64,000 bases of DNA from Gemmatimonas sp. GTDB lineage: Bacteria; Gemmatimonadota; Gemmatimonadetes; Gemmatimonadales; Gemmatimonadaceae. Both the position numbers and the translations under genes were made by a program. The stretch spans positions 62,001-126,000 of the forward strand of contig NZ_JAJTHI010000010.1 in NCBI RefSeq assembly GCF_021298855.1. Reading direction: 5' to 3'. Positions 4,082 to 62,264 of this stretch are shown piece by piece (positions within the stretch are counted from its first letter, which is position 1; every line of letters starts with the position of its first letter). A model generated the notes under the pieces. The model was given only the letters and a program-made list of their open reading frames with translations. It made no database searches and had not been told where the DNA came from.

Positions 4082-4678
4082 TCAGAACGCCGGTGTCAAT
4101 CCGCCAAACGCCCGGCTGACGTTCACGAACCCCACCGCGCGGGCCAACGCCCGCGCCCCCAGATCCGTGGACACGAGCGTCGCATACGGCAGCAGCCCGT
4201 CGCGCAGCAGCGCCTGCACGGTGCGGTGCAGGACGAGGTGCCCCAGGCCAATGTGCCGGAACGCCGGCGAAACGAGCACCCGCAGGCGCGAGAGGCGTCC
4301 GATCGGCGCACCGGCCGTGGCGAGCGCCACGAGCACGCCGCCTCGCAGGGCTCCCACCCGCAACCGATCGGCGGGCGCCTCACGCTCGGGTGGCGGCGCA
4401 AAGGGGCGCCACTCCTCCGGCGACACATCGAAGCGCAGCGTCTCGAGCAACATGGGGGCGGGGCCGTAGACCAGCACGGCGTTGGCGTGCGGCTCTGCCG
4501 TGAGCGTCTGCGCATCCACCATCGCCAGCAACTCGTTCGCCCCGAGGACCTCGCCCGCCGGGAGGGGGGCAAGACGCCCCCCCGCTGCCACGCCGCGTGG
4601 CGCCAGGATACGCAGCGCCTCGGCGATGGTGCGCTCGGCGAGGGCGATGGGGGTGCGAAGAGAGGGAGGGCGCGACAT
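4082..4678 (-). CDS. GNAT-like acetyltransferase domain protein
   Basis: The product is 198 aa. The second half (SRLRVLVSPAFRHIGLGHLVLHRTVQ, then LVSTDLGARALARAVGF) has the beta4-alpha3 R/Q-x-x-G-x-G/A pattern and the terminal ALA-x-x-GF segment of GNAT N-acetyltransferases, with the acetyl-CoA loop reading RHIGLG. The first ~100 residues are not recognisable and may be a substrate-binding half. Substrate unknown. It is the last gene of the minus-strand run that begins at the PorX-like gene, 79 nt after the aminotransferase, and converges on tyrS with a 22-nt gap. No clear promoter precedes it. Confidence 0.65.
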   Translation of the reverse strand: MSRPPSLRTPIALAERTIAEALRILAPRGVAAGGRLAPLPAGEVLGANELLAMVDAQTLTAEPHANAVLVYGPAPMLLETLRFDVSPEEWRPFAPPPEREAPADRLRVGALRGGVLVALATAGAPIGRLSRLRVLVSPAFRHIGLGHLVLHRTVQALLRDGLLPYATLVSTDLGARALARAVGFVNVSRAFGGLTPAF

Positions 4679-4757: not shown

Positions 4758-5903
4758 CTAGGCGTCCAGCACCGCTACCACGCGGTCGATCTCGTCGAGG
4801 GTATTGTACACGTGCGGCGAGAGTCGAATGGCCCCCTCCCGCACGGTGAAGTGCACCTGGGCACTGGTCAACGCGGCCGCCATGGGCGCCAGCGCCACTG
4901 GCGCGAACGACACGACCCCCGCGCGACGCGCGGATTCGGCGGGGGTGATGAGGCGCACGTCGGCGCGTGATTGCGCCCATTGGGTGAGACGCCCGGTGAG
5001 CGTCTCGAGATGCGCGGCAATGGCCGGCACGCCCAACTCCAGCAAGAGCGCTGTCGCGGCGTTGGCCACGGCGAAGTCGTGGTAGGCCAGCGTCACGACT
5101 TCGAAGCGCCGCGCGTCGTCGAAGAAATCGAATTCGTACTCCGTGAGGCGGGTGTAATCGGTGCTGCGCTTCATGCACGCCCACCCCACGTCGTGCGGCT
5201 GCAGCGCCGTCACGAGCTCACGGCGCACATACACGAAACCGGTGCCCCACGGCCCCAGCTGCCATTTCTGGGCACCACTCGCGAACAGGTCCACGGGAAT
5301 GGCGTGCAGGTCGAGTGGCCGCACGCCGCATCCCTGAATGCCGTCGACGATGAAGAACACCCCGCGCGCCCGGCAGGCGCGCCCGATGCGTGCGAGATCG
5401 GCGACGTACCCCGACGCGAACTGCACCCAGCTCACTACCACGGCCACCACATCCGACCGTTGCTCGATCGCCTGCACGAGCGCGTCCTCGTCGGGGAGCC
5501 CGTGGACCCGCGGAATGAGCTCGAGCGTCACCCCTCGCGAACCGAGCGCCTGAAAGGGATACACGCAGCTGGGGAACTCGCCATCGAACGCGAGGACCAC
5601 CCCCGGGCGCAGTGGCAAGGCGCGGGCGGCGAGGTTGAGCCCATAAGTGGTGTTGGGCATGAGCGCGATCTCGTCGTGGTCGGCACCAACGAGCGCCGCG
5701 AACTGTTGCCGGGCGGTCGCGGCCGCCTCGAGCAGCGACGAAAACGGGATCGCGTGCGGCCGGGCGCGCCAGGCACTCCACCGCGCCGCCTCACGCACCG
5801 CGGCCTCCGGCATCGGTCCCACGGATGCCGCATTCAGGTAGATACCTGGATCATCGGCCATCCATGCGAACTGGGTCGCGCGAAGCGAGATAGTGTCGAG
5901 CAT
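4758..5903 (-). CDS. Class V aminotransferase (cysteine desulfurase/isopenicillin-N-epimerase-like)
   Basis: The product is 381 aa, a fold-type I PLP enzyme. It opens with the typical segment YLNAASVGPMP. Asp187 of FIVDGIQG contacts the PLP pyridine nitrogen, and Lys213 in SGAQKWQLGP is the predicted Schiff-base lysine. There is no obvious catalytic Cys loop of IscS/SufS, so a dedicated Fe-S desulfurase role is unlikely; epimerase, lyase or transaminase chemistry is possible. The ATG at 5903 is chosen because the family N-terminus starts there. It is preceded directly by ten consecutive C residues on the coding strand, so no ribosome-binding site is visible. It lies 40 nt after the glycosyltransferase gene in the same operon. 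Confidence 0.85.
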   Translation of the reverse strand: MLDTISLRATQFAWMADDPGIYLNAASVGPMPEAAVREAARWSAWRARPHAIPFSSLLEAAATARQQFAALVGADHDEIALMPNTTYGLNLAARALPLRPGVVLAFDGEFPSCVYPFQALGSRGVTLELIPRVHGLPDEDALVQAIEQRSDVVAVVVSWVQFASGYVADLARIGRACRARGVFFIVDGIQGCGVRPLDLHAIPVDLFASGAQKWQLGPWGTGFVYVRRELVTALQPHDVGWACMKRSTDYTRLTEYEFDFFDDARRFEVVTLAYHDFAVANAATALLLELGVPAIAAHLETLTGRLTQWAQSRADVRLITPAESARRAGVVSFAPVALAPMAAALTSAQVHFTVREGAIRLSPHVYNTLDEIDRVVAVLDA

Positions 5904-5943: not shown

Positions 5944-7071
5944 TCAGGCTGGCGTGAGTGACGGCCGACGGGTGCGGCGGGCCCCGCTGTCACCGGCCGC
6001 GCGTGCCAGCAGCAGGGCCGCGTCATCAACGAACGCCTCCCAGCCGAACTCCCGAGCTGCCCGGGCGGCGGCGGCATGCCCCACCGCGCGTTGGGCATTC
6101 ACGTCCGCGAGGAGGCGCGCGAGCTCGGCTACGACCACGACCGTGTTGTCGGCCGAGACGTGGAGGCCGGTGGCCCCAGGCGTGACCAGCTCGGCAAAGG
6201 GGGCATCGACGGCTACGACGGTGGGCAACCGCTGCTGCATGGCCGCGAGCGTCGCGAGCGCCCCGAGGTCGCCCGGCGCCGTGATCCACGCGGCACGGGC
6301 GTGCCCCAGCTCATGCTGCAGCAGCGCCTCCACGGGCACGACCTCCACCGCAGCCGCCAGGTCGAGCGACGCGGCATGCACCCGCGTGCCTTGCAGCGCC
6401 GCGGGGGCGCCAACCAGCAGCACCCGCAAGTCCGGGCGACGGGTACGCAGATGCGCGAGCGCACGGAGGGCCGCCGCCGTGGCTTCGTCGTGCGACGCCC
6501 CGGGGACCAGCACCACGGCTGGCGCCGTCACCGGCAGCCGATGAATCGCGGTGGCATGCGCTGCCGTGTCAGCCACCCGTGGCGATGGCCACCCCAGCGC
6601 CAGGCGGGTGTCACCCCACGGCGTGATGGGAGTCCGGGCCCGTGCGAGACGCGCACGCCAGCGCAGCGTGGCGGACTTGGCCGCGCCACCAGCCGCGGGC
6701 GATCGAACCGCAGCCGTCCCCGTGCGCGGCACGTACTCGTCGGCCGTCACCCGGCGCACGATGCCACCGCGGGTGCCGATGGCGAAAGCCGCCAGCGCCG
6801 CATCGCCTTCGCTGCCCACCAGCAACGCGTCAGGGCGCAGCGCGTTGACGATCCCGCGCAGACTCCATGCCCGCCGCAGCCCACCGGCCCCGCTCACACT
6901 GCGCAGCGAGAGTCGTGGCCACCCCTGCTCCACCGCCCGTTCCGTGGCACTGCCGAGTGCGGTGACCATGGCCACCACATCCCCACCGGCGGCGAGCCCG
7001 GCCGCGAGTTGGGCCAGGAGCCGCGCTCCCGGCGTCCACTCGGGGGTGGAGGCCACGACCAACACGCGCAT
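5944..7071 (-). CDS. Glycosyltransferase (GT4/GT-B-like)
   Basis: The product is 375 aa. The N-terminus MRVLVVASTPEWTPGARLLAQLAAGLAAGGDVVAMVT is the first Rossmann strand and glycine-rich loop of GT-B glycosyltransferases. The second half carries the donor-domain pattern: AVVLVPGASHDEATAAALRALAHL, a mid-domain position list, and LVTPGATGLHVSADN followed by a terminal helix block ending in REFGWEAF. This last arrangement is typical of GT4 enzymes (PGxTGL...). The donor-binding E-x7-E is not clearly recognisable, so activity is uncertain. It starts 5 nt after the ABC exporter gene. Acceptor unknown; a cell-surface glycan or lipid is plausible from the neighbours. Confidence 0.72.
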   Translation of the reverse strand: MRVLVVASTPEWTPGARLLAQLAAGLAAGGDVVAMVTALGSATERAVEQGWPRLSLRSVSGAGGLRRAWSLRGIVNALRPDALLVGSEGDAALAAFAIGTRGGIVRRVTADEYVPRTGTAAVRSPAAGGAAKSATLRWRARLARARTPITPWGDTRLALGWPSPRVADTAAHATAIHRLPVTAPAVVLVPGASHDEATAAALRALAHLRTRRPDLRVLLVGAPAALQGTRVHAASLDLAAAVEVVPVEALLQHELGHARAAWITAPGDLGALATLAAMQQRLPTVVAVDAPFAELVTPGATGLHVSADNTVVVVAELARLLADVNAQRAVGHAAAARAAREFGWEAFVDDAALLLARAAGDSGARRTRRPSLTPA

Positions 7072-7076
7072 GATGG

Positions 7077-8939
7077 CTACCCGACCTCGGCGACTTCGTC
7101 GGTGGAGCGGCGATCGAACTGCAGCGCGTGCAGCCGCGCGTAGGGTCCGCCGCGCGCCAACAACGCGTCGTGTGCGCCTTCCTCCACGAGTCGGCCGCCA
7201 TCGAGGACCAGAATGCGGTCGGCGTGCTGAATGGTCGCGAGCCGGTGGGCAATGACGAAGACCGTGCGCCCTTCGAGCAGCCGGTCAATGGCCTCCTGCA
7301 CCAACCGTTCACTCTCCACATCGAGGGCCGACGTGGCCTCGTCGAGGATGAGAATGGGCGGATCCGATACGAGCGCGCGCGCGATGGCCACGCGCTGCCG
7401 TTGCCCACCCGACAGGCGGCTTCCGCGCTCACCGAGATTGGTGTCCCACCCCTCGGGCAAGGCCTCGATGAAGGCGAGCGCGTTCGCGGCCCGCGCCGCA
7501 TCGTCGAGTTGCGCCTGCGTGGCGTCGGGGCGCCCGAAGGCCACGTTGGCGCGCACGGTGTCGTTGAAGAGGACCGTGTCCTGGCTCACGATGCCGGTGA
7601 GGGCGCGCAGGGCTCCGAGGCGAATCTCCCGCAGATCCACGCCATCGAGGGTAATGCGCCCCGCGGTGGGATCGAGAAAGCGGGGGAGCAGGTCCACCAG
7701 CGTGCTCTTGCCGGCGCCACTCGCCCCCACGAGCGCCACCACTTCGCCTTTCCGCGCGGTGAACGTGACATCCTGCAACGCCGCGGCACCGCCATCGTAC
7801 TGGAACCCCACGCCGGAGAACGCGATCTCCCGCTCGAAGGTCGCCACATCCCGCGTCCCACGGTCGGTGGTCGTTTCCGCCGGTGCGTCGAGAATCTCGA
7901 ACACGCGCTCGGCGCTGGCGAGCGACTGCTGGGCCGCGGCCGGCGTTTGCGACAGCTGCTTGAGCGGCTGCAGCAATCGCATGACCTGCACGAGGAACAC
8001 CAGCAGCTCGGCGCCGGTGAGACTGCCCTCGACGAGCACCAGCTGCGCGCCGTACCAGAGGATGATGACGGCGGTGAGCGTGCCCAGGGTTTCGATGACC
8101 GGGCCCGAGAGCAACGCCAGACGTCCCACCTTCACGAAGCCGCGGGCGAAGGCATTGTTCTTCGCGGTGAAGCGTGCCTCTTCCCGCCCCTCGGCCCGGT
8201 ACGACTTCACGAGGCGCACCCCGCTGACCACTTCCTGCACGAGGCTCGTCATCTCCCCCTGCTCGTTGCCCAGACGGCGGTATCCCTGCCGCAACTTGCG
8301 CAGGACCGGCTGAATGGCACCGATCGTGACGGGGGCGATGACCAGGGCCGCGAGCGACAGGCGCCACGACGTGGTGAACATGGCCACCAGCGTCGCCACC
8401 AGCTGCGCGCCGCTCCAGAGGGAGCGCGTGACCAGCTCGGTCACGACCGTCTTCGCGTTGCCCGTGTCGTTGAGCACGCGGGCAATGATCTGCCCCACCT
8501 TGTTGCGGGTGAACCACGGCAACGGCAGGCGCAGCAGATGCGCATAGAGCTGGTCGCGCAGGTCACGCACCACGAACTCCTGCAGCTTCACGCCCAACTG
8601 CCCCGACAGCCACACCAGCGTGTTCTTCAGCGTCACCGCCGCGATCACGATGAGCAGCACATTGCGCAGCGACCCCATGCGATCCCGCTCATCGAGCAGG
8701 AATCCGATCGTGGTGTCGAGCACGCGTCCGATCGTGCCGGTCGCCGGGATCAGCTGTTCGCTCTGGAAGAACGCGTTGAAGAACGGCACCAGCAACGTGA
8801 ACGAGAACACGTCGGCGAAGGCGGCCAGCGCATTGAGCAGCACCACCAGCCCGAGCTTGCCCTTGTGCGGTCCCACGAACCGCCAGAGGCGGCGCCAGAG
8901 GACGGGCGCCGGTGTGCGGTGGGCCCCGGTGTCGGGCAT
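7077..8939 (-). CDS. MsbA-like ABC exporter (fused permease-ATPase)
   Basis: The product is 620 aa, a half-transporter with an N-terminal six-helix type I exporter domain (~20-320) fused to an ATPase (~360-600). Walker A is GASGAGKST with Lys411, the signature is LSGGQRQR, Walker B is ILILDEATSALD and the H-loop is VIAHRL. The order and length match MsbA/lipid and peptide exporters that work as homodimers in the inner membrane. I chose the ATG at 8939 because it sits 2 nt after the stop of the upstream PorX-like gene and leaves a normal N-terminus. The longer frame to 8981 overlaps that gene. Substrate is unknown; the glycosyltransferase next door suggests a lipid or glycan. Confidence 0.9.
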   Translation of the reverse strand: MPDTGAHRTPAPVLWRRLWRFVGPHKGKLGLVVLLNALAAFADVFSFTLLVPFFNAFFQSEQLIPATGTIGRVLDTTIGFLLDERDRMGSLRNVLLIVIAAVTLKNTLVWLSGQLGVKLQEFVVRDLRDQLYAHLLRLPLPWFTRNKVGQIIARVLNDTGNAKTVVTELVTRSLWSGAQLVATLVAMFTTSWRLSLAALVIAPVTIGAIQPVLRKLRQGYRRLGNEQGEMTSLVQEVVSGVRLVKSYRAEGREEARFTAKNNAFARGFVKVGRLALLSGPVIETLGTLTAVIILWYGAQLVLVEGSLTGAELLVFLVQVMRLLQPLKQLSQTPAAAQQSLASAERVFEILDAPAETTTDRGTRDVATFEREIAFSGVGFQYDGGAAALQDVTFTARKGEVVALVGASGAGKSTLVDLLPRFLDPTAGRITLDGVDLREIRLGALRALTGIVSQDTVLFNDTVRANVAFGRPDATQAQLDDAARAANALAFIEALPEGWDTNLGERGSRLSGGQRQRVAIARALVSDPPILILDEATSALDVESERLVQEAIDRLLEGRTVFVIAHRLATIQHADRILVLDGGRLVEEGAHDALLARGGPYARLHALQFDRRSTDEVAEVG

Positions 8940-8941
8940 CG

Positions 8942-10504
8942 TCAGCGCTTGGGCGTGAGCAGGGACACGGGGAGAATGCACTCCTCCGGTGTCACCCCGC
9001 CGTGCAGAAAGGAGCCGCGGTAGCGCCCCTGATACTCGCGCAGCTTGGTCGGATAGACGAAGAAGGTGTCCCCCGCGGCCATGAGCGTGTTGTTGCCCGG
9101 ACCGCGATGCGGCAGGCGCAGGTCGTCGGGGTTGGCGAACAGCAGCGCCTGCTCCGGGCGCTCGGCGCGGAGATCCTCCCCGAACTTGTAGCGCAGGTTC
9201 GCCGTGGCATCACGCTTGGCGAAGACGGTTGCCGGCGTGTTGCAGTGCAGCGCCCCGTGGTCGCTGGTGACCACCACCGACACGTTGCGGCGCGAGGCTT
9301 CCTTGAGCAGCGTGAAGAGCGCCGACCGTTCGAACCACTGCCGCGTGAGCGCCCGCAGGGCGATCTCGTCGCGCGCCACCTCGTACAGGATCATGCTCTC
9401 CGAGCGGCCGTGCGTCAGCATGTCCACGAAGTTGAAGACGAAGGCATGCACGCCGTCGCCGGCGATGGCCGCCGGCAGGTGGCGCTCCAGGTCGTCGGAG
9501 TCGGTGGCCGTCGTGAGCTTCTGATAGCGCACCGGGGCGGCCACCTGCAGCTCATCGAGGTGCGCCACGAGCAGGTCCTTTTCGTGGGCGTTGAGCGTTT
9601 CGTCGTCGCGCTCCCCCCACCAGTCGGGAAAGCGCGCCGCGATCTCCCCCGGGAACAGGCCGCTGAACAGCGCATTGCGCGCGTACGGCGTGGCGGTGGG
9701 CAGGATGGAGTAGTAGTGCGTCGTTTCCACGTCGAACAGCGGGACCAGCAGCGGCTCCAACGCCCGCCACTGGTCCAGCCGCAGGCAATCGATGACGACG
9801 AAAACGACCTTGCGATCGCGCTGCAGCACCGGCAGCACGAACTCGGTGACGACATCGACGGAGAGGGGCGGACGATCGCCCTCGAGCTCCCGGAGCCAGC
9901 GGGGATACTCCGTGCGCATGAACTCCGCGAACGCGCGGTGCATGTCGGGATAGAGCCCCCGCAGCGACTCGTGCAGCCCCAGTTCGCCGGCGTCGGCGAG
10001 GTCCACGTCCCACTGCATGAGCTCCGCAAAGCGATCGATCCAGCCGCGCCAGTCGAGATTGGCGTAGCGCTCCGATTCGATGGCGCGGAAGCGCTCGACG
10101 AACGCGCGCGCCATGGCCTGCGAGCGGATGAGGGGGCCGTCGAGAATCTTCGTGATGACCGACAGCACCTGGCGCGGCGTCACCGGCTTCACGAGATAGT
10201 CACGGATGTTGGCGCCGATCGCCTCCTTGAGGGTGGCGTCTTCCTCGCTCTTCGTGACCATGACCACCGGCAGGGCGGGCGCCAACTCGCGGATGTCGCG
10301 ATAGGCGTCGAGGCCACGCGTGCCCGGCATCTGCTCATCGAGCAGCACCAGGTCGTACGGGTGCCGGCGCAGCAGTTCGAGGGCGTCGTCGGCATTGGTC
10401 GCGGTGTGCACCACGTACCCCTTGTCGCCCAGGAGCAGGCGATGGGGTTCGAGCAAGTCCGCTTCGTCGTCCACCCAGAGGATGGTCTTTGCCGATGGCG
10501 CCAT
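8942..10504 (-). CDS. porX: PorX-like response regulator with PglZ/alkaline-phosphatase-type output domain
   Basis: The product is 520 aa. Residues ~5-125 form a receiver domain (ILWVDDE, phosphoacceptor Asp56 in LLDEQMPG, the MVTKSEED strand and DYLVKP). The rest is a PglZ/alkaline-phosphatase-superfamily domain with the segments VIDCLRLDQ, ATPYARNALFSG, FNFVDMLTHGR and VVVTSDHG, the positions of the catalytic Thr and metal ligands. This architecture and length match PorX, the Bacteroidota regulator linked to type IX secretion, whose output domain is reported as a Zn-dependent phosphodiesterase acting on oligonucleotides. No PorY kinase or T9SS gene is in this window. It heads a probable five-gene operon and has its own leaderless-type promoter. 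The symbol is by similarity. Confidence 0.85.
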   Translation of the reverse strand: MAPSAKTILWVDDEADLLEPHRLLLGDKGYVVHTATNADDALELLRRHPYDLVLLDEQMPGTRGLDAYRDIRELAPALPVVMVTKSEEDATLKEAIGANIRDYLVKPVTPRQVLSVITKILDGPLIRSQAMARAFVERFRAIESERYANLDWRGWIDRFAELMQWDVDLADAGELGLHESLRGLYPDMHRAFAEFMRTEYPRWLRELEGDRPPLSVDVVTEFVLPVLQRDRKVVFVVIDCLRLDQWRALEPLLVPLFDVETTHYYSILPTATPYARNALFSGLFPGEIAARFPDWWGERDDETLNAHEKDLLVAHLDELQVAAPVRYQKLTTATDSDDLERHLPAAIAGDGVHAFVFNFVDMLTHGRSESMILYEVARDEIALRALTRQWFERSALFTLLKEASRRNVSVVVTSDHGALHCNTPATVFAKRDATANLRYKFGEDLRAERPEQALLFANPDDLRLPHRGPGNNTLMAAGDTFFVYPTKLREYQGRYRGSFLHGGVTPEECILPVSLLTPKR

Positions 10505-10516
10505 GGAGGAAAGATA
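10505..10516 (-). promoter_or_regulatory. Leaderless-type promoter of the PorX-like gene
   Basis: On the minus strand, TATCTT (10516-10511) is followed by TCCTCC and the ATG at 10504. It lies back to back with the promoter of the gene at 10566; the whole divergent region is 61 bp. Confidence 0.65.
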
Positions 10517-10554
10517 CACAGGGGGTGCCCCCGCCACGGCGTGCCGGTTCGTGC

Positions 10555-10565
10555 TAGAATTGGGT
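10555..10565 (+). promoter_or_regulatory. Leaderless-type promoter of the 131-aa unknown gene
   Basis: TAGAAT, then TGGGT, then the GTG at 10566. The five-base gap leaves no ribosome-binding site. The downstream flank TG makes the element TAGAATTG. Confidence 0.6.
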
Positions 10566-10961
10566 GTGCTGACCGATCCCCTCCCGTACGCACTGGACCC
10601 GCTTCGCTTCGGATTTCCCGCCCTGGCCTCCCTGGCGGGGCGCCTGCCGTTGGGTGGCGGGCGCGAAGTGGCGCTTGCGGCCCTGCTGTCCGCCCGTCTC
10701 GCCCATGGGCTCACACCGGGGAGCGCGCTGCCGGCATCCGACCGGGTGGCGCGCGCCTCGGGCGCCAAGATCTGGTTGGCGTCGTTGGCGCTCCCGGCCA
10801 CCACGCGCGTGCCCTTCGCGCGGTGTGTCGAAGCCAGCACCGGCACCCCACTCCAGGCGGCGGGCGCCCTCCGCACCGTGGTCGCCGCCGCCGGGGCCCA
10901 CCTCGATGGTCCGTCGGTACAGGAGTTGGAGCGCCTGGCCCGACTGCTGGCGGGCGGCTGA
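10566..10961 (+). CDS. Conserved-looking protein of unknown function, 131 aa
   Basis: I do not recognise a family. The protein is alanine/leucine-rich and mostly helical by composition, with no signal peptide and no clear membrane span. Its only Cys is in FARCVEAS. A segment GRLPLGGGREVALAALLSARLAHGL precedes a block ending in ELERLARLLAGG. The GTG start is supported by a -10 element ending 5 nt upstream. The next gene, a RecA/DnaB-like ATPase, begins 3 nt after the stop, so the two are cotranscribed and may act together. It is divergent from the PorX-like gene. Confidence 0.75.
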   Translation: MLTDPLPYALDPLRFGFPALASLAGRLPLGGGREVALAALLSARLAHGLTPGSALPASDRVARASGAKIWLASLALPATTRVPFARCVEASTGTPLQAAGALRTVVAAAGAHLDGPSVQELERLARLLAGG

Positions 10962-10964
10962 CCG

Positions 10965-11801
10965 ATGGCCGGTGATCACGACATTTCGCCGCTCACCCGC
11001 ATCGTGGCGCGCGTGGATCGGACCGGCGAGGGGCAGGTGGATCCGGAGCTCGTCCCGACGCACTTCCCCTCCATCGATCGTCTCTTCGGCGGCGGGTTCC
11101 GGCGCGGCGATCTGATCGTGCTCGGGGGTGACGACAGCGCCGGGTCATCGGCGCTGGCCCTGGCCGTGGCGCTGCGCAGTGCCTCACGGGCGCTCATCGT
11201 CTCCACCGAGATGCAGCCGGAGCGCATCTACGAGCGGGCCCTTGCCATGTCCGCGCGGGTCTCCGTGGAGCACATGCGGCTCGGCGCCGTCGATGAGGCC
11301 GAGCGGGCCCGTCTGGCCGCGGCCGCCCTGTCCTTGCGTGATCGGGCCCCGGTGGTGGAAACGCTGCTCGATGGCGGAATCACCGCCATCGAACGCGCCG
11401 TGGAGGCCACCCCCGGCGCCGCCCTGGTCATCATCGACACGCTCGAAGGCACGCTGCAGCGCGACCACGGCCAGGCGGACGCCCTGGGCTTCGCGGTGCT
11501 CGCGCTCAAGCGCCTGGCGCTCTCGCGCCAGCTCGCCGTGCTGGTCACCGCGCACCTGCCCGCGCTCGATCGGACCCGGGCTGACCGACGCCCGCGGTTG
11601 GCCGATTTCGGCCTCGGTGGTGCCGTGGGCACGCACGCAGATGTGGTCCTGGGGCTCTTCCGCGAGGAGATGTACGAATTCGACCGCGGGGTGTCGGGAG
11701 CGGCAGAGCTGCTCGTGCTCAAGAATCGCGGCGGCGCGCGCACCTACGTGGACCTCTATTTCGACGCCCGCTTCGGCCGCTTCGAGGACGTGGCCGAGTA
11801 G
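10965..11801 (+). CDS. RecA/DnaB-C-like ATPase-fold protein with degenerate Walker A
   Basis: The product is 278 aa, a single RecA-fold domain most like the C-terminal helicase domain of DnaB or the ATPase of RadA/KaiC. FPSIDRLFGGGFRRGDLIVLGG leads into the P-loop, IVSTEMQPERIYERALAM matches the DnaB segment that reads fSlEM, ALVIIDTLEG is Walker B, and LLVLKNRGGARTYVDLYFD matches the KnRnG tail. In the P-loop (residues 54-62) the sequence is GGDDSAGSS: the invariant Lys is Ser61. ATP hydrolysis is therefore doubtful. There is no DnaB N-terminal domain, so it is not the replicative helicase. It is coupled to the upstream 131-aa gene. Function unknown. Confidence 0.8.
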   Translation: MAGDHDISPLTRIVARVDRTGEGQVDPELVPTHFPSIDRLFGGGFRRGDLIVLGGDDSAGSSALALAVALRSASRALIVSTEMQPERIYERALAMSARVSVEHMRLGAVDEAERARLAAAALSLRDRAPVVETLLDGGITAIERAVEATPGAALVIIDTLEGTLQRDHGQADALGFAVLALKRLALSRQLAVLVTAHLPALDRTRADRRPRLADFGLGGAVGTHADVVLGLFREEMYEFDRGVSGAAELLVLKNRGGARTYVDLYFDARFGRFEDVAE

Positions 11802-35799: not shown

Positions 35800-38700
35800 T
35801 CAGCGCCCGGGGGCCAGAAGCTGGTCGATGCGGGTGGCCAACTCGTCCAGCGTGAAGGGCTTGGCCAGCACGGGGCGTCCCGTGGCGCGGATGAAGCGCG
35901 AGGCCGCCGCGCTGTGCAGATCACCCGTCATGAACACCACGCGTTGCGCCTGGTCCGGGTGCGCAGCCCGCATGGAGTCGTAGACATCCTCGCCGGAGAT
36001 CCCCGTCATGCGGAGATCGAGCAGGATGAGATCGAAGCGCCGGGCGCTCACCAGGTCGAGCGCCGCGCTGCCACTGTCGGCCACCTGCACGTCGTAGTGC
36101 TGCCCGCGCAGGAATCGGCTGATCGCGGCCCGGAGCGTCGGCTCGTCCTCGATCAGCAGGATCGAGGCGGCAGCAGGAACCGGGACCGCACTGGCCGCGA
36201 GCGTGCCGTCCGGCGCCGCCGCGACCGCGGTAGCGCCAGCCGGCGTGCGACGTGCTGGCGGCGGGGTGGGCGCAGTGCCTTCCACCAGCGCGGGAAAGGT
36301 GAGCGTGAACCGCGCCCCCTGTCCCGGCTCGGAGTGGACGTGAACCTGTCCACCATGGTCGCGCACGATGGTGTGGGTGATGGTCAGCCCCAGTCCACGA
36401 TGCCCAAGCGCCCCGCGGGTCGTGAACATGGGTTCCAGTACCCGCTCCACGTGCGCCGGGAGAATGCCGGGCCCGCTGTCCTCGATGGTGACCCGGACCT
36501 CGTCGCCGTGGATGGCCGAAGTGACCCGCACCTCACGTAGGCCGCGGTGCTCGCTGAGCGCCTGCTCCGCATTGGCCAGCAGATTCGAGACGACCTGCTG
36601 CAGCTGCAGCGCGTCGCCGTTGACGAGGCAGAGCCTGGGCTCCAGCGCAATCCGCACCGACGCGTCGATGGCGCGCAGCGTATAGCCGTGGTGGTCGAGC
36701 ACGCGACGCAGCACCGTGTTCACATCCACCGGCACGCGGGTGCCGCCGAGCTGCGGCGCCTCACCGGTGGTATCGAGCAACTGCCCCACGATGCGGCTGG
36801 CGCGGCGCGCCTCCTCGGCGATCTGTTCAACCGCGCGGCGGTCCTCCGCCCCGAGCGAGGGAGACGACAGCTGGAGCTCCGCGACGGCAAGCAGGCTGGC
36901 AAGCGGGTTGTTCAACTCATTGGCCACCCGCCCCAGCGATTGCCCCACGGCGGCCAGTCGCGCCTGCTGCAGCGAGGCTTCATGCCTCATCTCATCGTTC
37001 GTGATGTCGCGCACGATGCCCAGCGCCCCCACCACGACGCCGTCTTCCAGAAGCGGGGCGGTGGTGACGAGCGTGAGACGCGAGCCGGCGTGCCCAAGGC
37101 AGCGCAGCTGGAGGCGGCGACGGTTCCCGGCCAGCGTGGCGCGCATCTCCCGCTCGGCGAGGCCGCGATCCACGGGATCGACCAGCGTCAGGAAATGCGT
37201 ACCGAGCACCTGCTCCGCAGGCAGCCCGGCCTCCGCGAGAAACCCGGGATTCACCGAGGTGAACGTGCCGTCCGACGCCACCGTGAAGATGGCGTCGATG
37301 GCGTTGTCGATGAGGCGACGGTACAACTCCTCACTGCGGTGACGCGCCAGCGCGTCGGCGCGCTGCTCGGTCACGTCCCGCAGACACGACACCGTGCCGG
37401 TCACCTCGTTCAGTTCGTAGAGGGGCGCGCTGCTCACCTGCACGGTGCGCGTCGTGCCGTCGGCACGCTGCACTTCGCATTCGTAGCGACGCGCCAGTCC
37501 CTGTCGCGTGGCCAGCTCCTCGCGCTCGAGTGCTTCCACGCCGCCGGGTACGACGAGATCGATGTTCAGCGCGCCCACGAGATTCCCGCGGCCCACCAGC
37601 AGGTGCGCAGCCGGGTTGGCAAAGGTGATGCGCCCGTCGAGGCCGGTGATGATGATCGCATCGGACACCGTCTCGAGCACCTTGCGGTGCTGCTCGGCGA
37701 GACGCGCCGTCTCCGTCACGTCATCGAAGGTGATGACGCACCCCCCGTCCGGGTGCGAGGCCGCAAGCAGTGAGAAGAGGCGGCCGGTGGCCATGTCGCG
37801 CACCGTCTCCCGCACCGGTACGCCATCGGTGAGGGCACGATCGATGAAGGCGTCAAGTTGCCGGCCTTCGTCGGAGTCTCCGCTGCCCACGAGGGCTTCG
37901 CGAAAGCGCCGGCCCAGGAGCCCGGGAATGCTGAATCCGCACAGTTCCGCTGCGCGACTGTTGCAGCGGCTCACCGTGAGCGATTCCTCGAGTACCACGA
38001 TGCCGTTGGCGGTGCTGTCGAAGGCCACCTTCCACTCGCGGGTGGCGCGTTCGATTTCCTCGAACAGTCGCGCATTCACGATGGCGACCGCGACCTGATC
38101 GGCCAGTCGCTGCAGGACCTTGGCGTCCTCCGCGTCGAACGGACGCTCGCGGTTGAGGATGGCGATGGCGCCAATGGTGCCGCGTCCGGTCACGAACGGC
38201 GCAATGACCGAGCGCTGAATGCGCAGGAGATGCTGAACCAGCCGGTTCAGCGCGTCATCGCCCCCGGACTCATTCATGAGAATGAGTTCGTTGGTCAGCA
38301 CCGAGCGACCGATGAGGCTCGCGTTGACGGGCAGATGCACGCCGCCCAGGACATCGGCGCTGCCGATGGCCGCCACAATATGGAGATAGTCACCCGTGCG
38401 CAGCGCGATGCACGCGCCCTCGACGCTCAGCAGCGAGACGGCATGGCGCAGGATGAGACGCAGGACCTCACCAAGCCGCAGCGACTCGCCGACGGCACGC
38501 GCCACGTCGGCCAGCGCCTCGGTGGTGCGGCGTTCCCGCTCGCTCTCGGCGTACCGTCGTGCGTTGGCAATGGCGGTGGCCACCTGCGAGGCCATGGTGG
38601 CCAGCATCTCTTCGTCTTCGGCCGTGTAGACATCCGGGCTGGTGGAGTGCACGGCCAGCACGCCGAGCAATCGGATGCCCACGCGAATGGGGACCGCCAC

Positions 38701-39639
38701 CACGCTGGTGGCCACGCCCGATTCGCCGACGACGTCGTACATCGACACCGGCGGCGCAATGCCGGCCTTCTCGCGAGCCTTGTCCGCCTCGCGGTCACCA
38801 ACACGCACGGGACGGCCGGTCCGCGCCACCTCGGCCACGATCCCATCGCCCAACCGCACGGGGCTGCGCGGGCGCTCGACGCCGCGGACCAGCCGCAGCG
38901 CGGTCGCGAGAGTGTCGTGGTGGAGATCAGGGACGAGCACGGCGACGCCATCACAGCGGATGGCTCGTTGGACCTGCCGCGCGAGCTCCCGCATGATCTC
39001 CTGCTCGTCGAGCGACCGCGTGAGCGACGCGCCGGCCTCCTGCAACAGCGTGAGGCGCTCATGGCGCTGGAGCGCCAGCGCTTCGAGCGCGTCGTAGGCC
39101 ACCCGGGCAGTGAGGTGGCGCGCGACCGCTTCGATCTCGCCCAGCCGCCGGTCGTCCGGGCGGCGACCATCGCGTGCCCCCGCCAGCTTCATGGTGCCGA
39201 CCACTTCGCCCTTCGGCCCACGCATGACGGCCACCAGCAGATCGGTGGGCAGCCACTCGTCACCGTCACCGCCCGGGGTCGGTTCCGTGCCGAAGAACTC
39301 CCGGGCGACCCACGGATCGCTGCCATTGAGCAGGTACAGGTCGCCCACCCGGAAGCGTTCCAGATGCGAGAGACGCCGGCGCCACACGGCCCCGGGCAGG
39401 GGCTTGAGCCCGAAGCCCGTGAGTGACGTGAGATCAGGGCTGCCGGCCTGGGCCACCACCGTCGGGTTGAGCGACGCATCACGCAGCGAGATGACCACCC
39501 GATCGAAGCCCAGGTCGTACAGGGCATTTGCCGCAATCTGAACCCGCGCCCCGGTCGACTCGGCGCGATCGATCGCGTCGAGAATGGCGGGGAGGGGGCG
39601 GGTCGCGGATGCGGCGGCGGGTGTGGAGGCGCGGAGCAT
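35800..39639 (-). CDS. Hybrid sensor kinase-like protein (GAF x3, PAS x3, HATPase, receiver) lacking the H-box histidine
   Basis: The product is 1279 aa and soluble by sequence. Three GAF-like domains (~25-190, 215-375, 395-540) precede three PAS domains (~545-900; e.g. AFDSTANGIVVLEESL, VSDAIIITGLDGRITFANPA, AIDAIFTVASDGTFTSVNPGF). The dimerisation box reads GRVANELNNPLASLL: the phosphoacceptor His is Asn907 (codon AAT at 36919-36921). The HATPase domain is complete (N-box NLLANAEQAL, G1 EDSGPGI, G2 GLGLTITHTIVRDHGG). A C-terminal receiver has Asp1208 in LILLDLRM. It may act without autophosphorylation, as a pseudokinase or phosphatase. The ATG at 39639 is chosen by homology; a longer frame invades tamB. 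Confidence 0.88.
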   Translation of the reverse strand: MLRASTPAAASATRPLPAILDAIDRAESTGARVQIAANALYDLGFDRVVISLRDASLNPTVVAQAGSPDLTSLTGFGLKPLPGAVWRRRLSHLERFRVGDLYLLNGSDPWVAREFFGTEPTPGGDGDEWLPTDLLVAVMRGPKGEVVGTMKLAGARDGRRPDDRRLGEIEAVARHLTARVAYDALEALALQRHERLTLLQEAGASLTRSLDEQEIMRELARQVQRAIRCDGVAVLVPDLHHDTLATALRLVRGVERPRSPVRLGDGIVAEVARTGRPVRVGDREADKAREKAGIAPPVSMYDVVGESGVATSVVAVPIRVGIRLLGVLAVHSTSPDVYTAEDEEMLATMASQVATAIANARRYAESERERRTTEALADVARAVGESLRLGEVLRLILRHAVSLLSVEGACIALRTGDYLHIVAAIGSADVLGGVHLPVNASLIGRSVLTNELILMNESGGDDALNRLVQHLLRIQRSVIAPFVTGRGTIGAIAILNRERPFDAEDAKVLQRLADQVAVAIVNARLFEEIERATREWKVAFDSTANGIVVLEESLTVSRCNSRAAELCGFSIPGLLGRRFREALVGSGDSDEGRQLDAFIDRALTDGVPVRETVRDMATGRLFSLLAASHPDGGCVITFDDVTETARLAEQHRKVLETVSDAIIITGLDGRITFANPAAHLLVGRGNLVGALNIDLVVPGGVEALEREELATRQGLARRYECEVQRADGTTRTVQVSSAPLYELNEVTGTVSCLRDVTEQRADALARHRSEELYRRLIDNAIDAIFTVASDGTFTSVNPGFLAEAGLPAEQVLGTHFLTLVDPVDRGLAEREMRATLAGNRRRLQLRCLGHAGSRLTLVTTAPLLEDGVVVGALGIVRDITNDEMRHEASLQQARLAAVGQSLGRVANELNNPLASLLAVAELQLSSPSLGAEDRRAVEQIAEEARRASRIVGQLLDTTGEAPQLGGTRVPVDVNTVLRRVLDHHGYTLRAIDASVRIALEPRLCLVNGDALQLQQVVSNLLANAEQALSEHRGLREVRVTSAIHGDEVRVTIEDSGPGILPAHVERVLEPMFTTRGALGHRGLGLTITHTIVRDHGGQVHVHSEPGQGARFTLTFPALVEGTAPTPPPARRTPAGATAVAAAPDGTLAASAVPVPAAASILLIEDEPTLRAAISRFLRGQHYDVQVADSGSAALDLVSARRFDLILLDLRMTGISGEDVYDSMRAAHPDQAQRVVFMTGDLHSAAASRFIRATGRPVLAKPFTLDELATRIDQLLAPGR

Positions 39640-39703
39640 AGGGTACCGCAAGGACGACGATCCCCGTGGCCGCGAAACGTCGTCGCGGCAGACCCCACGG
39701 TGC

Positions 39704-42700
39704 CTAGAAGGTCCAGAAACGGAAAAAGTCGATTCCCACCTGCGGCGGTGTCTGCTGGAAGGTGCGGCTGATCCCCGCCCGGCCGCAGGCCTGGGCGCTC
39801 GAGCCGGGCTCCACCCCTGCCGAGACGGAAAGCCCCCCCTCGAAGCGTCGCTCCACCTTGACGCCGAGTCCCTGGGCAAAGAGCGAGAGGGCATCGCCGT
39901 TGCCGCCACTCTGCGGGGCCAGCCCGCACAGGCCGGTACTGAAGGTGAGGAAGGTGTTGCGGGCCACCTGTCCGCCAACCCCGACGCGTGTGGAGGCCAG
40001 AATGCCGAGGCCGTTCTGGCGGAGATTGGCCGCGTCACCCGGATTGAGGGCCGTGGGTTCCACCTGGACCACGTCGAAGCGGCCGCCGGCCAGCCGGCTC
40101 GACAGGTACGATCCGGCCAGGCGCAGCGCCAACGTGGCCCCCTGCTCGGCGTACGTGCTCCCCAGCACGGTGTACGCCGGTTCGCCGGTGACGAGGTAGC
40201 TGAGCATATCGCTCTCGGGGAGCGGCGGATTGTCGGCACTGGTGAGCGCCAGCGTGGGGCGATCGACCGTCCCGCCGATGTTCACGCGGATGCGCACGAA
40301 TTGCTGGTTGGAGTTCGCCCGCGTCTCGCGGACCGTATGCAACGCCGCGATGTCGAGGGTGGGCTGCAGCTCCGGATCACCGAAGAACCGCACGAGTCCA
40401 CGTTCGACCTCGAAGGTTGGCCGGGCCAGCCCGAGGTTGAGCTGGTACGTGCCACGTTCGACGGTGAGCGAGTCGGCCAGCGCCAGTCGCGCGGCGCGCC
40501 CGTCACGGGATAGTGCCTGGGTCACGCGAAGCTGCCCGCCCAACTTGAGATTCGCCTCGGGGGAGCGCAGCCACACATCATCGCCGATGCCGATGCGCAC
40601 GTCGTCGAGTTGCAGGTTGCGCACCAGCGCGCTCGGGGCGTTCGGCAGCAGCGCATTCATCACCAGCTGCGACGTATCCACGAGATCGAGATTGTCGCTC
40701 AGGTCGAGCGCGCGACGCTGGGTGAGTTGGCTGATGTACACGCGCCCGCGATCGACACGCACGGCGCCACGGAGGCGGGCCGCATCGCTCGAGCCGGTCA
40801 GCACGACCGGTGTGGGCGTGCTCACGGTGAGCGTCGCCGTGCGCGCCTTGTCCACGGCAAGGAAGTTGTTGGCGGCCAGACGCAGGTTGAACGATGGCTT
40901 GGCGATCTCGGCAATGCTGATCACCCCGGACAGGCCAAGGGTATCGGTGAGGGCACCACTCACGGCGCCGAAGCGCCGAATGAGGATGCTGTCGCCGGTC
41001 AGCCCGATGTCGGCGGTGGCGCGCTCCAGACGAATGCCGAGATTCGCCAGCGTGAGCGCCGCACTGTCCATGCGCACCTGGCCACGCAGGCGTGGACGAT
41101 TCCAGGTGCCGGTGAGCTGCACATCGCTTTCCAGCGTTCCCGCGGCCCGCGTGACATCCGGGAAGAGCGCTTCGAGCAGCGACAGGTCGGTACGCTGGGC
41201 GGTGATGCGCCCCGCCAGCGGCTCGTCGATCCGGCGCGTAGTGCGGGCGGCAAGCGCCAGATCGAGGGGCAGTGAAGCCGTGGCCCGCACGGCATCGACG
41301 CCGCGCAGGCGCAGGGCGCCGTTGAGGGTGAGCCGCAGCGAGTCGTACCGCGCCTGCACGCTCAGGTCGCCGAGGCGCACCCGGCCGACCACGGCATCGG
41401 CAAGCGCGACCGCCCCCGTGAGCTGCGGTTGCTCGCGCGTTCCGCTGACGACGCCCTGCGCCGTGAGCGCGCCCTGGTCGAGCCCTGAGCGGCGCAGGAG
41501 GCGACCGACATCATTGAGCGGCAAGCGGGTCACCGCGACGCTGGCGCTGACCGCGCCACCGGCCGCCACCCGTCCGCGCACGGCCAAGCGCCCCGTGTCG
41601 GTGTGCTGCAGCACCAGGGAGTCCAGCGCCCCCTCGCCGTCGGGTTGCCACCGCAGGGTCGACGGGCCGGCCAAGGTGAAGCCGCGCGGTCGCGCGCCCA
41701 GGGTATCGACGCGCACCGTGAGCGTGTCCAGGCGCACTTCGGTGGAATCCCCACGCCGCGTGACCCCACCGGCGATCGCCACGCGCGACTCCGACGGCGT
41801 GCGCAAGGCGAAGGTGAACCGATCGGCGAGTCCGCCCTTGAGCGTGGCACGCGCCGTCGCGGCGGCCACGTCGATGCCCGCCACGTAGGCCGAATCCGCG
41901 GACGCCGTGAAGAGGCCGTTCGCGCCACGCAGCACATCCCGTACGTCGAGGTCGAAGGCCGTGCGGATGGCGCGCGAACTCGCGACCACGAGATCACTCA
42001 CGTCGGCCCGCAGTTGCAGGTCGAGCCCTCGCGTATCCAGCGTGTCGATGGAGCCGCGCAGGACGCCCGACACCTCCACGCTACCGCGCAGCGTGTCGGT
42101 GGGCAGGACCAGCGGGCGCGTACCGGTATCGGTGGGCGAGAGCCACGGGCGCAGCCCGCCGAGGGAGTCGACGTGCACCGACAGCATCAGCGAATCGCGT
42201 TTGGCCTCGGCCAGACCCACGCCGCCGCGGGCCGTGAGGCGCGCCGCCGAGCTTTCCAGCGTCAGCGTGTCGACCCGCACAACGCCCTGGTCGAAACGCA
42301 GCGCGGCGCTCCCCCCGAAGACCCGCGCATCGGCGATCCGCGAGAACTGATCGATCGTCGCCCGCAGCGGCCCGGTGAAGCTGTCGTTGCGGAAGACCCC
42401 CGACTCGTTGACGGTGCCCTTCAGGTCGACCGTGCCCGCCATGTTGAGCGTCGACGTGGGGAGGCTGCTGCTGCCGAACAACGCCTGCAGGTTGCCGCCG
42501 CGGACTCGCCAGTCTCCGGCCGCCCCCATCACCGGTTCCAGCGCATCGGCCACGCCGGTGAAGCTCACCTCGCCCCCTTCACCGGAGAGGGTGGTGTTCA
42601 GGTCGAACCGGTCGGCCATGCCCATGGCCCGAATGCGTCCCACGGCACTGCCGCGCAGCGGCATGTTGGGATAGGAGCGCGACAAGGTGGTGTAGGAGAG

Positions 42701-44290
42701 CGGCAACGCCTCGAGATCCACATCGAACCTGACCCCTTCCGTGACGAGCGTGTAGCGGCCGGCACCGGTGAAGCGCGAGGGTTGCCCGGGGCCATCCACG
42801 AGCTCGAGATCCGCCTTGCTGAAGCGCGCGTCGTACCACAGGGAGTCGAGTCGCACCACGCCACGCGCAAAGCCGCCCAGCTCCGCGAAGAGCGGGTTCA
42901 CGAACCGCGGGGTGCGGAAATCGAGCTGGTCGATCGTGAGGTCCACCCCCTTGAGGATGGCTTCGGCGGGCCGGAAGAGGTCGAGGCGTCCCCTGGCCCG
43001 TGCCCGTGAGATGGCGCCCGGCACGTGTTCGTCCTCGAACGTCACCCGTGCCTCATCGAGCGCCCAGTCGGTCACGTAGCCACCGCTGGCGCGGAGCGTC
43101 CCGCGCACGGCGCCGCGCCAGTCATAGGGGAAGGGTTCTCCGTTGAACCAGCGCAGCAGATCGGTGTGGGCGGGCTGCAGGTCGAGATTCACATTGGTCA
43201 GCCGCGTCACGACGCCACCCACGCCCCACGTCATCGAGCCCCGCAGTCGCGACTTCAGCGACCGCGCGTCCATGTCGGTGATCGCGTAGTCGATGATGTT
43301 GAGATCGCGCGGGTCGTTGCGCATGGTGAGCATGGCGCTGCCGCCCCCGGTGTGCGGTACGGTCTCGTCGATCCACGCGAGATCGCTCAGGGCCACGCTG
43401 TCGAGACGCAGGCGCACATCGTAGCGCACGGGGCGGTTGCCGCCCCAGACGATCTTGGCGCCGCCGCGCGCGGTGCTGCGCGGCAGGTCGAAACGGGCAT
43501 TCTCCACCCACAGGGAATCGCCGAGACGACGGAAATCGCCCGACAGATCCTTGAACCAGAAGGGCGGATGGATCCACATCACGTCGAGACGGCGCACCGG
43601 GAAGCGCATGCCGGCCGTGTCGGGGTGAGCAAGCCACGAACGCCCCAGCGCCAGATTGCCGCGCACGAAGCGGTGCACACGCACGAGCCGGCCATCCTCC
43701 CGTCGCACCTCCCCGTCGAGGCGCCCCAGGTTGTACGCCAGCGCACTGTCGCGTTTGGCCCCGCGCAGGGAGTCGGCCAACTGCCAGGGGAGCCGCATCA
43801 CGAAGGTCACTTCGTGGAGCGCCGTGGTGTCGATCACGATGTACGTGCCGAACCGGGTCGTGCCTGGCTCACGGCGGCGGCGCGGGGTACGCTGCAGCGC
43901 GCGACGCCAGTTCCAGTCGTCCTTGCCGTAGTCGATGAGGGTGATCACCGGTCGCGTGACCTCGAGCGACTTCACCACGATGCGCGCGTCGAGCAGATCG
44001 CGCGGATCGTAGCTGAGGCGGATCGGCCCCGTGCTGAGAAACGGGGTCCCGTCGGGCGCCCGGACATCGACGCTGTCGATGGTGATGTCGCTGAAGAGAT
44101 TCCCGCCCACCGCGCCCACGTAGAGCCGCCCCGGTATGGCAGCCCGTGCCAGCGGCATCACCGTGCGCAGAATGAGCGCGCGGCCGCGCACGGTCTGCGT
44201 GAGGGCCACGACGCCGCCCACCACGGTCGCCAGCAGCGACAGCAGGACGGCGGCGGTGCCCAGCACGATGGTGCGGCGGCGTGGTGCCAT
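39704..44290 (-). CDS. tamB: TamB-like translocation/assembly (AsmA-like) protein
   Basis: The product is 1528 aa. One N-terminal membrane span (TIVLGTAAVLLSLLATVVGGVVAL) anchors a very long repetitive beta-helical protein that would cross the periplasm, with recurring RLDSV/VRGTL-type strands. The C-terminal ~350 residues match the TamB/DUF490 domain (DNPPLPESDMLSYLVTGEPAY, then SGGNGDALSLFAQGLGVKVERRF) and end in an aromatic residue (FFRFWTF). TamA-TamB-like systems are linked to outer-membrane protein insertion and lipid transport to the outer membrane. The gene follows tamA by 37 nt. I start it at the ATG at 44290 (MAPRRRTIVLG); the longer frame overlaps tamA. Confidence 0.92.
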   Translation of the reverse strand: MAPRRRTIVLGTAAVLLSLLATVVGGVVALTQTVRGRALILRTVMPLARAAIPGRLYVGAVGGNLFSDITIDSVDVRAPDGTPFLSTGPIRLSYDPRDLLDARIVVKSLEVTRPVITLIDYGKDDWNWRRALQRTPRRRREPGTTRFGTYIVIDTTALHEVTFVMRLPWQLADSLRGAKRDSALAYNLGRLDGEVRREDGRLVRVHRFVRGNLALGRSWLAHPDTAGMRFPVRRLDVMWIHPPFWFKDLSGDFRRLGDSLWVENARFDLPRSTARGGAKIVWGGNRPVRYDVRLRLDSVALSDLAWIDETVPHTGGGSAMLTMRNDPRDLNIIDYAITDMDARSLKSRLRGSMTWGVGGVVTRLTNVNLDLQPAHTDLLRWFNGEPFPYDWRGAVRGTLRASGGYVTDWALDEARVTFEDEHVPGAISRARARGRLDLFRPAEAILKGVDLTIDQLDFRTPRFVNPLFAELGGFARGVVRLDSLWYDARFSKADLELVDGPGQPSRFTGAGRYTLVTEGVRFDVDLEALPLSYTTLSRSYPNMPLRGSAVGRIRAMGMADRFDLNTTLSGEGGEVSFTGVADALEPVMGAAGDWRVRGGNLQALFGSSSLPTSTLNMAGTVDLKGTVNESGVFRNDSFTGPLRATIDQFSRIADARVFGGSAALRFDQGVVRVDTLTLESSAARLTARGGVGLAEAKRDSLMLSVHVDSLGGLRPWLSPTDTGTRPLVLPTDTLRGSVEVSGVLRGSIDTLDTRGLDLQLRADVSDLVVASSRAIRTAFDLDVRDVLRGANGLFTASADSAYVAGIDVAAATARATLKGGLADRFTFALRTPSESRVAIAGGVTRRGDSTEVRLDTLTVRVDTLGARPRGFTLAGPSTLRWQPDGEGALDSLVLQHTDTGRLAVRGRVAAGGAVSASVAVTRLPLNDVGRLLRRSGLDQGALTAQGVVSGTREQPQLTGAVALADAVVGRVRLGDLSVQARYDSLRLTLNGALRLRGVDAVRATASLPLDLALAARTTRRIDEPLAGRITAQRTDLSLLEALFPDVTRAAGTLESDVQLTGTWNRPRLRGQVRMDSAALTLANLGIRLERATADIGLTGDSILIRRFGAVSGALTDTLGLSGVISIAEIAKPSFNLRLAANNFLAVDKARTATLTVSTPTPVVLTGSSDAARLRGAVRVDRGRVYISQLTQRRALDLSDNLDLVDTSQLVMNALLPNAPSALVRNLQLDDVRIGIGDDVWLRSPEANLKLGGQLRVTQALSRDGRAARLALADSLTVERGTYQLNLGLARPTFEVERGLVRFFGDPELQPTLDIAALHTVRETRANSNQQFVRIRVNIGGTVDRPTLALTSADNPPLPESDMLSYLVTGEPAYTVLGSTYAEQGATLALRLAGSYLSSRLAGGRFDVVQVEPTALNPGDAANLRQNGLGILASTRVGVGGQVARNTFLTFSTGLCGLAPQSGGNGDALSLFAQGLGVKVERRFEGGLSVSAGVEPGSSAQACGRAGISRTFQQTPPQVGIDFFRFWTF

Positions 44291-44327
44291 TAGGGGAGCC
44301 CCCCGGCGGCGGCGGCGGTGCCCGGCA

Positions 44328-61900: not shown

Positions 61901-62245
61901 CAGCGGGTGCAGGCCGCCGAGACGTACATCCGCGGCTATCGTCGCCTGCTGGAGCCGGGGCTCTACCAGGGGCAGAACGGCAACTTCCTGCGCTGGCGCG
62001 AACTCGCCATCACCTACGACTTCGGCGCCGACCTCGCCAAGAAGCTCGGTTTCCGCAACGCCAGCATCACGGCCGCCGGGCGCAACCTGTTCCTCTGGAC
62101 GAGCTACCCGGGACAGGACCCCGAGTCGAACGAGAACGGCCGCGGCTCAGTCGGCGCACTGCAGGACAACTTCCAGAACGCGACGGACGGCTTCGGCCTC
62201 CCGATTCCGCGTCGTGTCTCGCTCGCGCTGAACCTCAACTTCTGA
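58961..62245 (+). CDS. SusC/RagA-family TonB-dependent outer-membrane receptor
   Basis: The product is 1094 aa with a signal peptide ([18 protein letters not shown]). A CarboxypepD_reg-like domain (~33-115: [25 protein letters not shown]) precedes the plug (~130-250, with [30 protein letters not shown] and [23 protein letters not shown]). A 22-strand barrel follows, with the closing strand [12 protein letters not shown] Gly-rich loop ([13 protein letters not shown]) lies in the plug. Together with SusD it imports a large ligand, often glycans or peptides; the ligand is unknown and no glycoside hydrolase is adjacent. Confidence 0.95.
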
Positions 62246-62264
62246 TTCGGAGCACGATCCCTCT

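Follow-up and report, generated by a model that had tools for sequence, protein, structure and literature searches.

A PorX-type regulator heads an MsbA-like exporter operon in Gemmatimonas and may couple lipopolysaccharide export to surface assembly

PorX is the response regulator of the type IX secretion system (T9SS) in Porphyromonas gingivalis, the gum disease bacterium, and in Flavobacterium johnsoniae (7pv7, 8ted, 8p6f). A sequence-only reading of a 64,000-nucleotide stretch of the Gemmatimonas sp. genome (contig NZ_JAJTHI010000010.1; this whole stretch is referred to below as the window) pointed to a protein of the same layout heading an operon with an exporter of the MsbA type, and suggested that it may control or modify the export of envelope glycans or lipids. 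The locus thus raises the question of what a PorX would govern in this phylum: type IX secretion, the supply of the cell surface with lipids, or both. The gene run is composed as follows, the neighbours of porX having been called from open reading frames and similarity, without a gene finder.

8942..10504, minus strand: porX, with a receiver (residues 8-117), a three-helix linker (approximately 123-216) and a PglZ/alkaline-phosphatase-fold domain (approximately 217-518), assigned from NF052313, Pfam, residues and structure
7077..8939, minus strand: MsbA-like ABC exporter (ABC_membrane and ABC_tran; TIGR02203; conserved beside porX)
5944..7071, minus strand: glycosyltransferase group 1 (PF00534; by synteny, in the slot of a lipid A acyltransferase in related genomes)
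4758..5900, minus strand: class-V aminotransferase (PF00266; by synteny, kept behind msbA in related families)
4082..4678, minus strand: GNAT-type acetyltransferase, closing the run (PF00583, weak at 22.8 bits)

The coordinates first given are correct but name no strand. The porX gene reads from an ATG at 10504 to a TGA ending at 8942 and encodes 520 amino acids beginning with MAPSAKTILWVDDE (translation of minus strand 10504-8942); the plus-strand frame across 8942-10504 is open as well, but it is a meaningless antisense frame and was rejected as a gene. Two bases separate the porX stop codon from the ATG of the msbA-like gene (8939; the 634-aa open reading frame reaching up to 8981 is over-extended), and these two genes are probably translated together. 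The operon of exporter, glycosyltransferase and aminotransferase is therefore real, with all of its members on the same strand. The exporter scored 519.8 bits against the MsbA_lipidA model (TIGR02203), under the equivalog cut-off of 602, which marks it as related only. An Rfam search of the 64-kb window gave no match.

Divergently from porX, the plus strand carries a gene for a small protein without a family match (10503-10961), whose possible ATG overlaps the porX ATG within a CCATGG palindrome, followed by a gene for a DnaB/KaiC-like ATPase (10965-11801); in related genomes both of them are conserved next to porX and yebC-ruvC. Elsewhere in the window, an Omp85/POTRA gene stands beside a tamB gene (39704-46562, minus strand), a TAM-like pair for outer-membrane assembly or lipid transport, and a SusC-type TonB-dependent receptor is followed by a SusD-like protein (58961-63659, plus strand).

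The identity of the protein was assessed by family models, conserved residues and structure prediction. The NCBIfam equivalog T9SS_RR_PorX (NF052313) covers residues 7-519 with 535.8 bits at a cut-off of 300, while Pfam recognizes Response_reg (residues 8-117, 93.8 bits) and PglZ (residues 231-424, 64.8 bits). P. gingivalis PorX (7pv7) matches with a phmmer E-value of 1.6e-107, and all five PDB sequences that match over the full length are PorX. The AlphaFold2 model (mean pLDDT 88.0, pTM 0.77) superimposes on 7pvk with a TM-score of 0.92 and an rmsd of 2.4 over 515 columns; its 17 best structure matches are PorX crystal structures (TM 0.87-0.93), and the next one is a BREX PglZ complex at a TM-score of only 0.45. 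The layout and domain identity originally proposed are thereby confirmed, and so are the phosphoacceptor and the phosphatase-fold motifs. The receiver has Asp56 together with Asp13, Glu14, Thr84 and Lys106, and the output domain has the catalytic nucleophile T272 and the zinc ligands D239, D361, H365, D415, H416 and H501, the positions having been transferred in register from the ligands given for F. johnsoniae PorX (PMC11320123). No loss of metal-ligand residues, the observation named beforehand as counting against the assignment, is seen. Overall, by sequence and predicted fold, the window protein is a true PorX, in which a helical linker joins the CheY-like receiver to a two-zinc domain with predicted phosphodiesterase activity.

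In Bacteroidota, the receiver of PorX takes up the phosphoryl group on the conserved Asp and contacts the motor protein PorL/GldL, and zinc bound in the phosphatase domain promotes both dimers and phosphodiesterase activity (PMC11320123, PMC10951265). PorY and SigP are the known partners of PorX. Oligonucleotide signalling by PorX is cited in PMC10951265 and PMC12839542, and the oligonucleotide signal suggested for the window protein is taken from this literature. For the window protein, we identified neither a DNA-binding domain nor a named partner kinase, and no kinase gene adjoins porX in the 64-kb window. A large hybrid histidine kinase frame, in which GAF and PAS domains recur and a receiver forms the C-terminal part, is present farther away (35800-40239, minus strand), with no link to PorX shown.

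This PorX is neither peculiar to one genome nor a likely newcomer. It is a core gene of Gemmatimonadota: among 200 sampled genomes, 176 gave a match much stronger than a receiver domain by itself would produce. In the unrooted PorX tree, a 100/100 branch splits Gemmatimonadota from Bacteroidota, and the order within Gemmatimonadota follows families, so that the descent looks vertical rather than the result of a recent transfer from Bacteroidota. This tree, the sampled genomes of the phylum and syntenic loci from named Gemmatimonadetes all put the window near Gemmatimonadales. The window protein shares domain layout, length, 34-36% identity and a fold within the above TM range with PorX of P. 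gingivalis and F. johnsoniae. The sites compared, namely the phosphoacceptor, the receiver Thr and Lys, the zinc ligands and the catalytic Thr, do not vary among the 31 Gemmatimonadota and 72 Bacteroidota PorX sequences. In contrast, residues at the known interfaces differ: Leu113 of the receiver dimer, present in 72/72 Bacteroidota sequences, is Ser in 30/31 of those from Gemmatimonadota, and Ser384 and Ser388 of the phosphatase dimer, likewise 72/72 in Bacteroidota, are not kept in Gemmatimonadota, while the linker is only 23% identical. The combination of kept chemistry with changed dimer contacts and linker would fit a switch and enzyme that have been retained with different partners.

The genomic context of porX was compared in both phyla. 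Of 50 loci sampled across Gemmatimonadota, 47 have an MsbA-like gene downstream of porX in the same orientation (as do 10/10 named loci, close 3' of it), most often with touching genes or a 4-base stop/start overlap and in a few cases with a gap or an inserted gene. This pairing, conserved through the greater part of the phylum, supports the proposed link to envelope lipid export at a depth that a single window could not reveal. In many loci of the families f4-f9, a lipid A acyltransferase (lpxL-type, PF03279), a GT2 glycosyltransferase and DUF3108 come next, often with the addition of a methyltransferase resembling Leptospira LmtA; on account of these genes, the exporter of the porX operon is very likely a lipid A/LPS exporter, even if the window copy falls below the MsbA cut-off and a glycosyltransferase occupies the acyltransferase slot. 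Compared with MsbA-LpxL operons, the porX-msbA-lpxL-GT2-DUF3108 arrangement of these other families is distinguished by the receiver-phosphodiesterase regulator at its head, and we found no paper describing such an operon. In the family f10, genes of the heptosyltransferase family abut porX instead.

In contrast to this arrangement, none of 70 Bacteroidota loci has an MsbA-like gene directly beside porX. There, HD, lpxD and lpxC/fabZ genes diverge from it in 55 of 65 loci, and tsaE-ald usually follow. Nearly all of the settings inspected thus have LPS genes next to porX, but which genes these are and how they are oriented differs; our literature search found nothing naming PorX together with LpxC. 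As the lpx genes point away from porX and most of the sampled loci come from Flavobacteriaceae, the Bacteroidota synteny may be mere inheritance.

The type IX side of the question was approached by searching the window's genome for SprA, GldM, GldL, PorV and the C-terminal sorting signal Por_Secre_tail. A 2404-aa SprA/Sov protein, the outer-membrane translocon of T9SS, is encoded on another contig (1086 bits; the model's cut-off is 200), and in this respect the suggestion that the regulator works outside a type IX secretion setting has to be amended. On the other hand, its remaining part stands, in that no complete T9SS was found elsewhere in the genome: neither PorV (PF19572) nor the type A signal Por_Secre_tail (TIGR04183) gave a match, with a positive Flavobacterium control for the former and 41 matches in Flavobacterium for the latter. 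PorM/GldM (TIGR03517) was found in none of four Gemmatimonadota, including the window's genome, and in all four Flavobacteria used as a control, and the N-terminal GldM domain (PF12081) in none of 200 Gemmatimonadota genomes. PorL/GldL (TIGR03513) gave no match with a model run without a positive control. SprA is thus the only T9SS part found among those searched, and a strongly diverged motor could also be present. While the SprA equivalog is common to Bacteroidota and this genome, the gene here (contig C29, 316-7530) is directly followed by comEA-like, pilB, pilT and pilC genes, a type IV pilus neighbourhood unlike that of the Bacteroidota T9SS. A 2016 survey placed T9SS in Bacteroidetes only (PMC4793230), and T9SSs may be present in Gemmatimonadetes according to PMC11285876.

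SprA proved to be widespread in the phylum (about 72% of the sampled genomes), as called by two independent models that gave 144 and 143 positives in the same 200 genomes, the second being a search with a 680-aa block. PorX and SprA occur together in 142 genomes, PorX only in 34, SprA only in 2 and neither in 22 (Fisher p 3.5e-12); at the level of genera the corresponding counts are 70/14/1/8 (p 2.4e-5), these p-values being indicative as genomes are not independent. In 20,000 within-family shuffles, the number of genera without both proteins never came up to the observed 8, and their joint loss is seen again inside the genera g8 and g66. Of the two genomes with SprA and no PorX, G116 also has no good MsbA match and may represent an assembly gap. 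The porX-msbA pair, for its part, is kept in 17 of 17 checked genomes without SprA. PorX-less genomes retain msbA, several of them also lpxL and the aminotransferase, at the usual position and with a clean absence of porX, from which it follows that the exporter does not need PorX; an obligate PorX-MsbA pair, each useless alone, was rejected on the same grounds. In genus g72 (family f7) porX is joined to a GT2 gene, with neither SprA nor an msbA ortholog found. Overall, SprA seems to need PorX, PorX can do without SprA, and MsbA can do without PorX.

The explanation that we tentatively prefer, judging from context and distribution, is that PorX links the export of lipid A/LPS with the assembly of the cell surface and has been kept or co-opted for SprA-dependent secretion. 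By this mechanism, a putative sensor kinase would phosphorylate Asp56, and the dimer state together with the zinc-dependent phosphodiesterase would then set an output by protein contact or by an oligonucleotide. This output would match LPS export to surface assembly, the signal, the targets and the LPS role all being presumed, and in genomes with the SprA channel it may also serve SprA-dependent surface secretion. A tie between T9SS and lipid A processing is already known from P. gingivalis (PMC12704123). Several points weigh against the proposed coupling: the exporter gene is retained in genomes that have lost porX, genus g72 keeps porX with no msbA ortholog found, a glycosyltransferase fills the acyltransferase slot of the window, the Bacteroidota synteny may be inherited, neither a DNA-binding domain nor a named partner kinase was identified, and a gene neighbourhood is no proof of regulation.

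The chief rival, which we consider doubtful, would make PorX the ordinary regulator of a divergent T9SS whose motor, shuttle and cargo signals have changed too much to be recognized, its place in a lipid A operon being incidental. The large and high-scoring SprA of this genome speaks for it, as do the rarity of SprA without PorX, the loss of PorX almost only along with SprA (down to single genera) and the published possibility of T9SSs in the phylum. It is harder to reconcile with the 34 of 176 PorX genomes that have no SprA by either model, with the failure to find GldM, PorV or Por_Secre_tail in the window's genome by models that perform well in Flavobacterium (and the N-terminal GldM domain in any sampled genome) and with the loss of interface residues that do not vary across Bacteroidota PorX. 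A further proposal, which we regard as unlikely, is that the control of lipid A/LPS supply was the ancestral job of PorX and its T9SS role came later, the SprA of Gemmatimonadota being a translocon without a rotary motor; such an ancestral role would explain both the LPS genes beside porX in the two phyla and the survival of PorX where SprA is missing.

More unlikely still, PorX would control lipid A/LPS export only, and its correlation with SprA would be indirect, both being lost where the cell surface simplifies. The phylum-wide pairing with msbA, found also without SprA, and the LPS genes adjoining porX in family f10 and in Bacteroidota are what this explanation would predict, but PorX-less genomes still carry msbA, lpxL and the other operon genes, and the loss of PorX tracks that of SprA within families and genera. 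Finally, a stray defence component with a BREX-like nuclease is highly improbable and was rejected: although the PglZ domain is shared, the BREX-3 PglZ model gives 72.2 bits and BREX PglZ is a metal-dependent nuclease according to PMC12205998, this score is far under the cut-off of 250 (compared to 535.8 bits with the PorX model), the architecture differs, no BREX gene is seen nearby among the housekeeping and lipid A genes, and porX is core in the phylum.

The proposed coupling of LPS export to surface assembly bears on a matter that is disputed even in Porphyromonas, namely whether PorX acts by gene control, by contact with the PorL motor or by an oligonucleotide signal. In Gemmatimonadota, with PorX and SprA widespread and GldM, PorV and the usual cargo tags undetectable, these modes would be separated by nature, which makes the phylum a natural place to learn the original target of PorX control. 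The deeply conserved porX-msbA pair ties PorX to LPS export, and the coordination of T9SS with LPS may thus become testable in a cultured soil bacterium.
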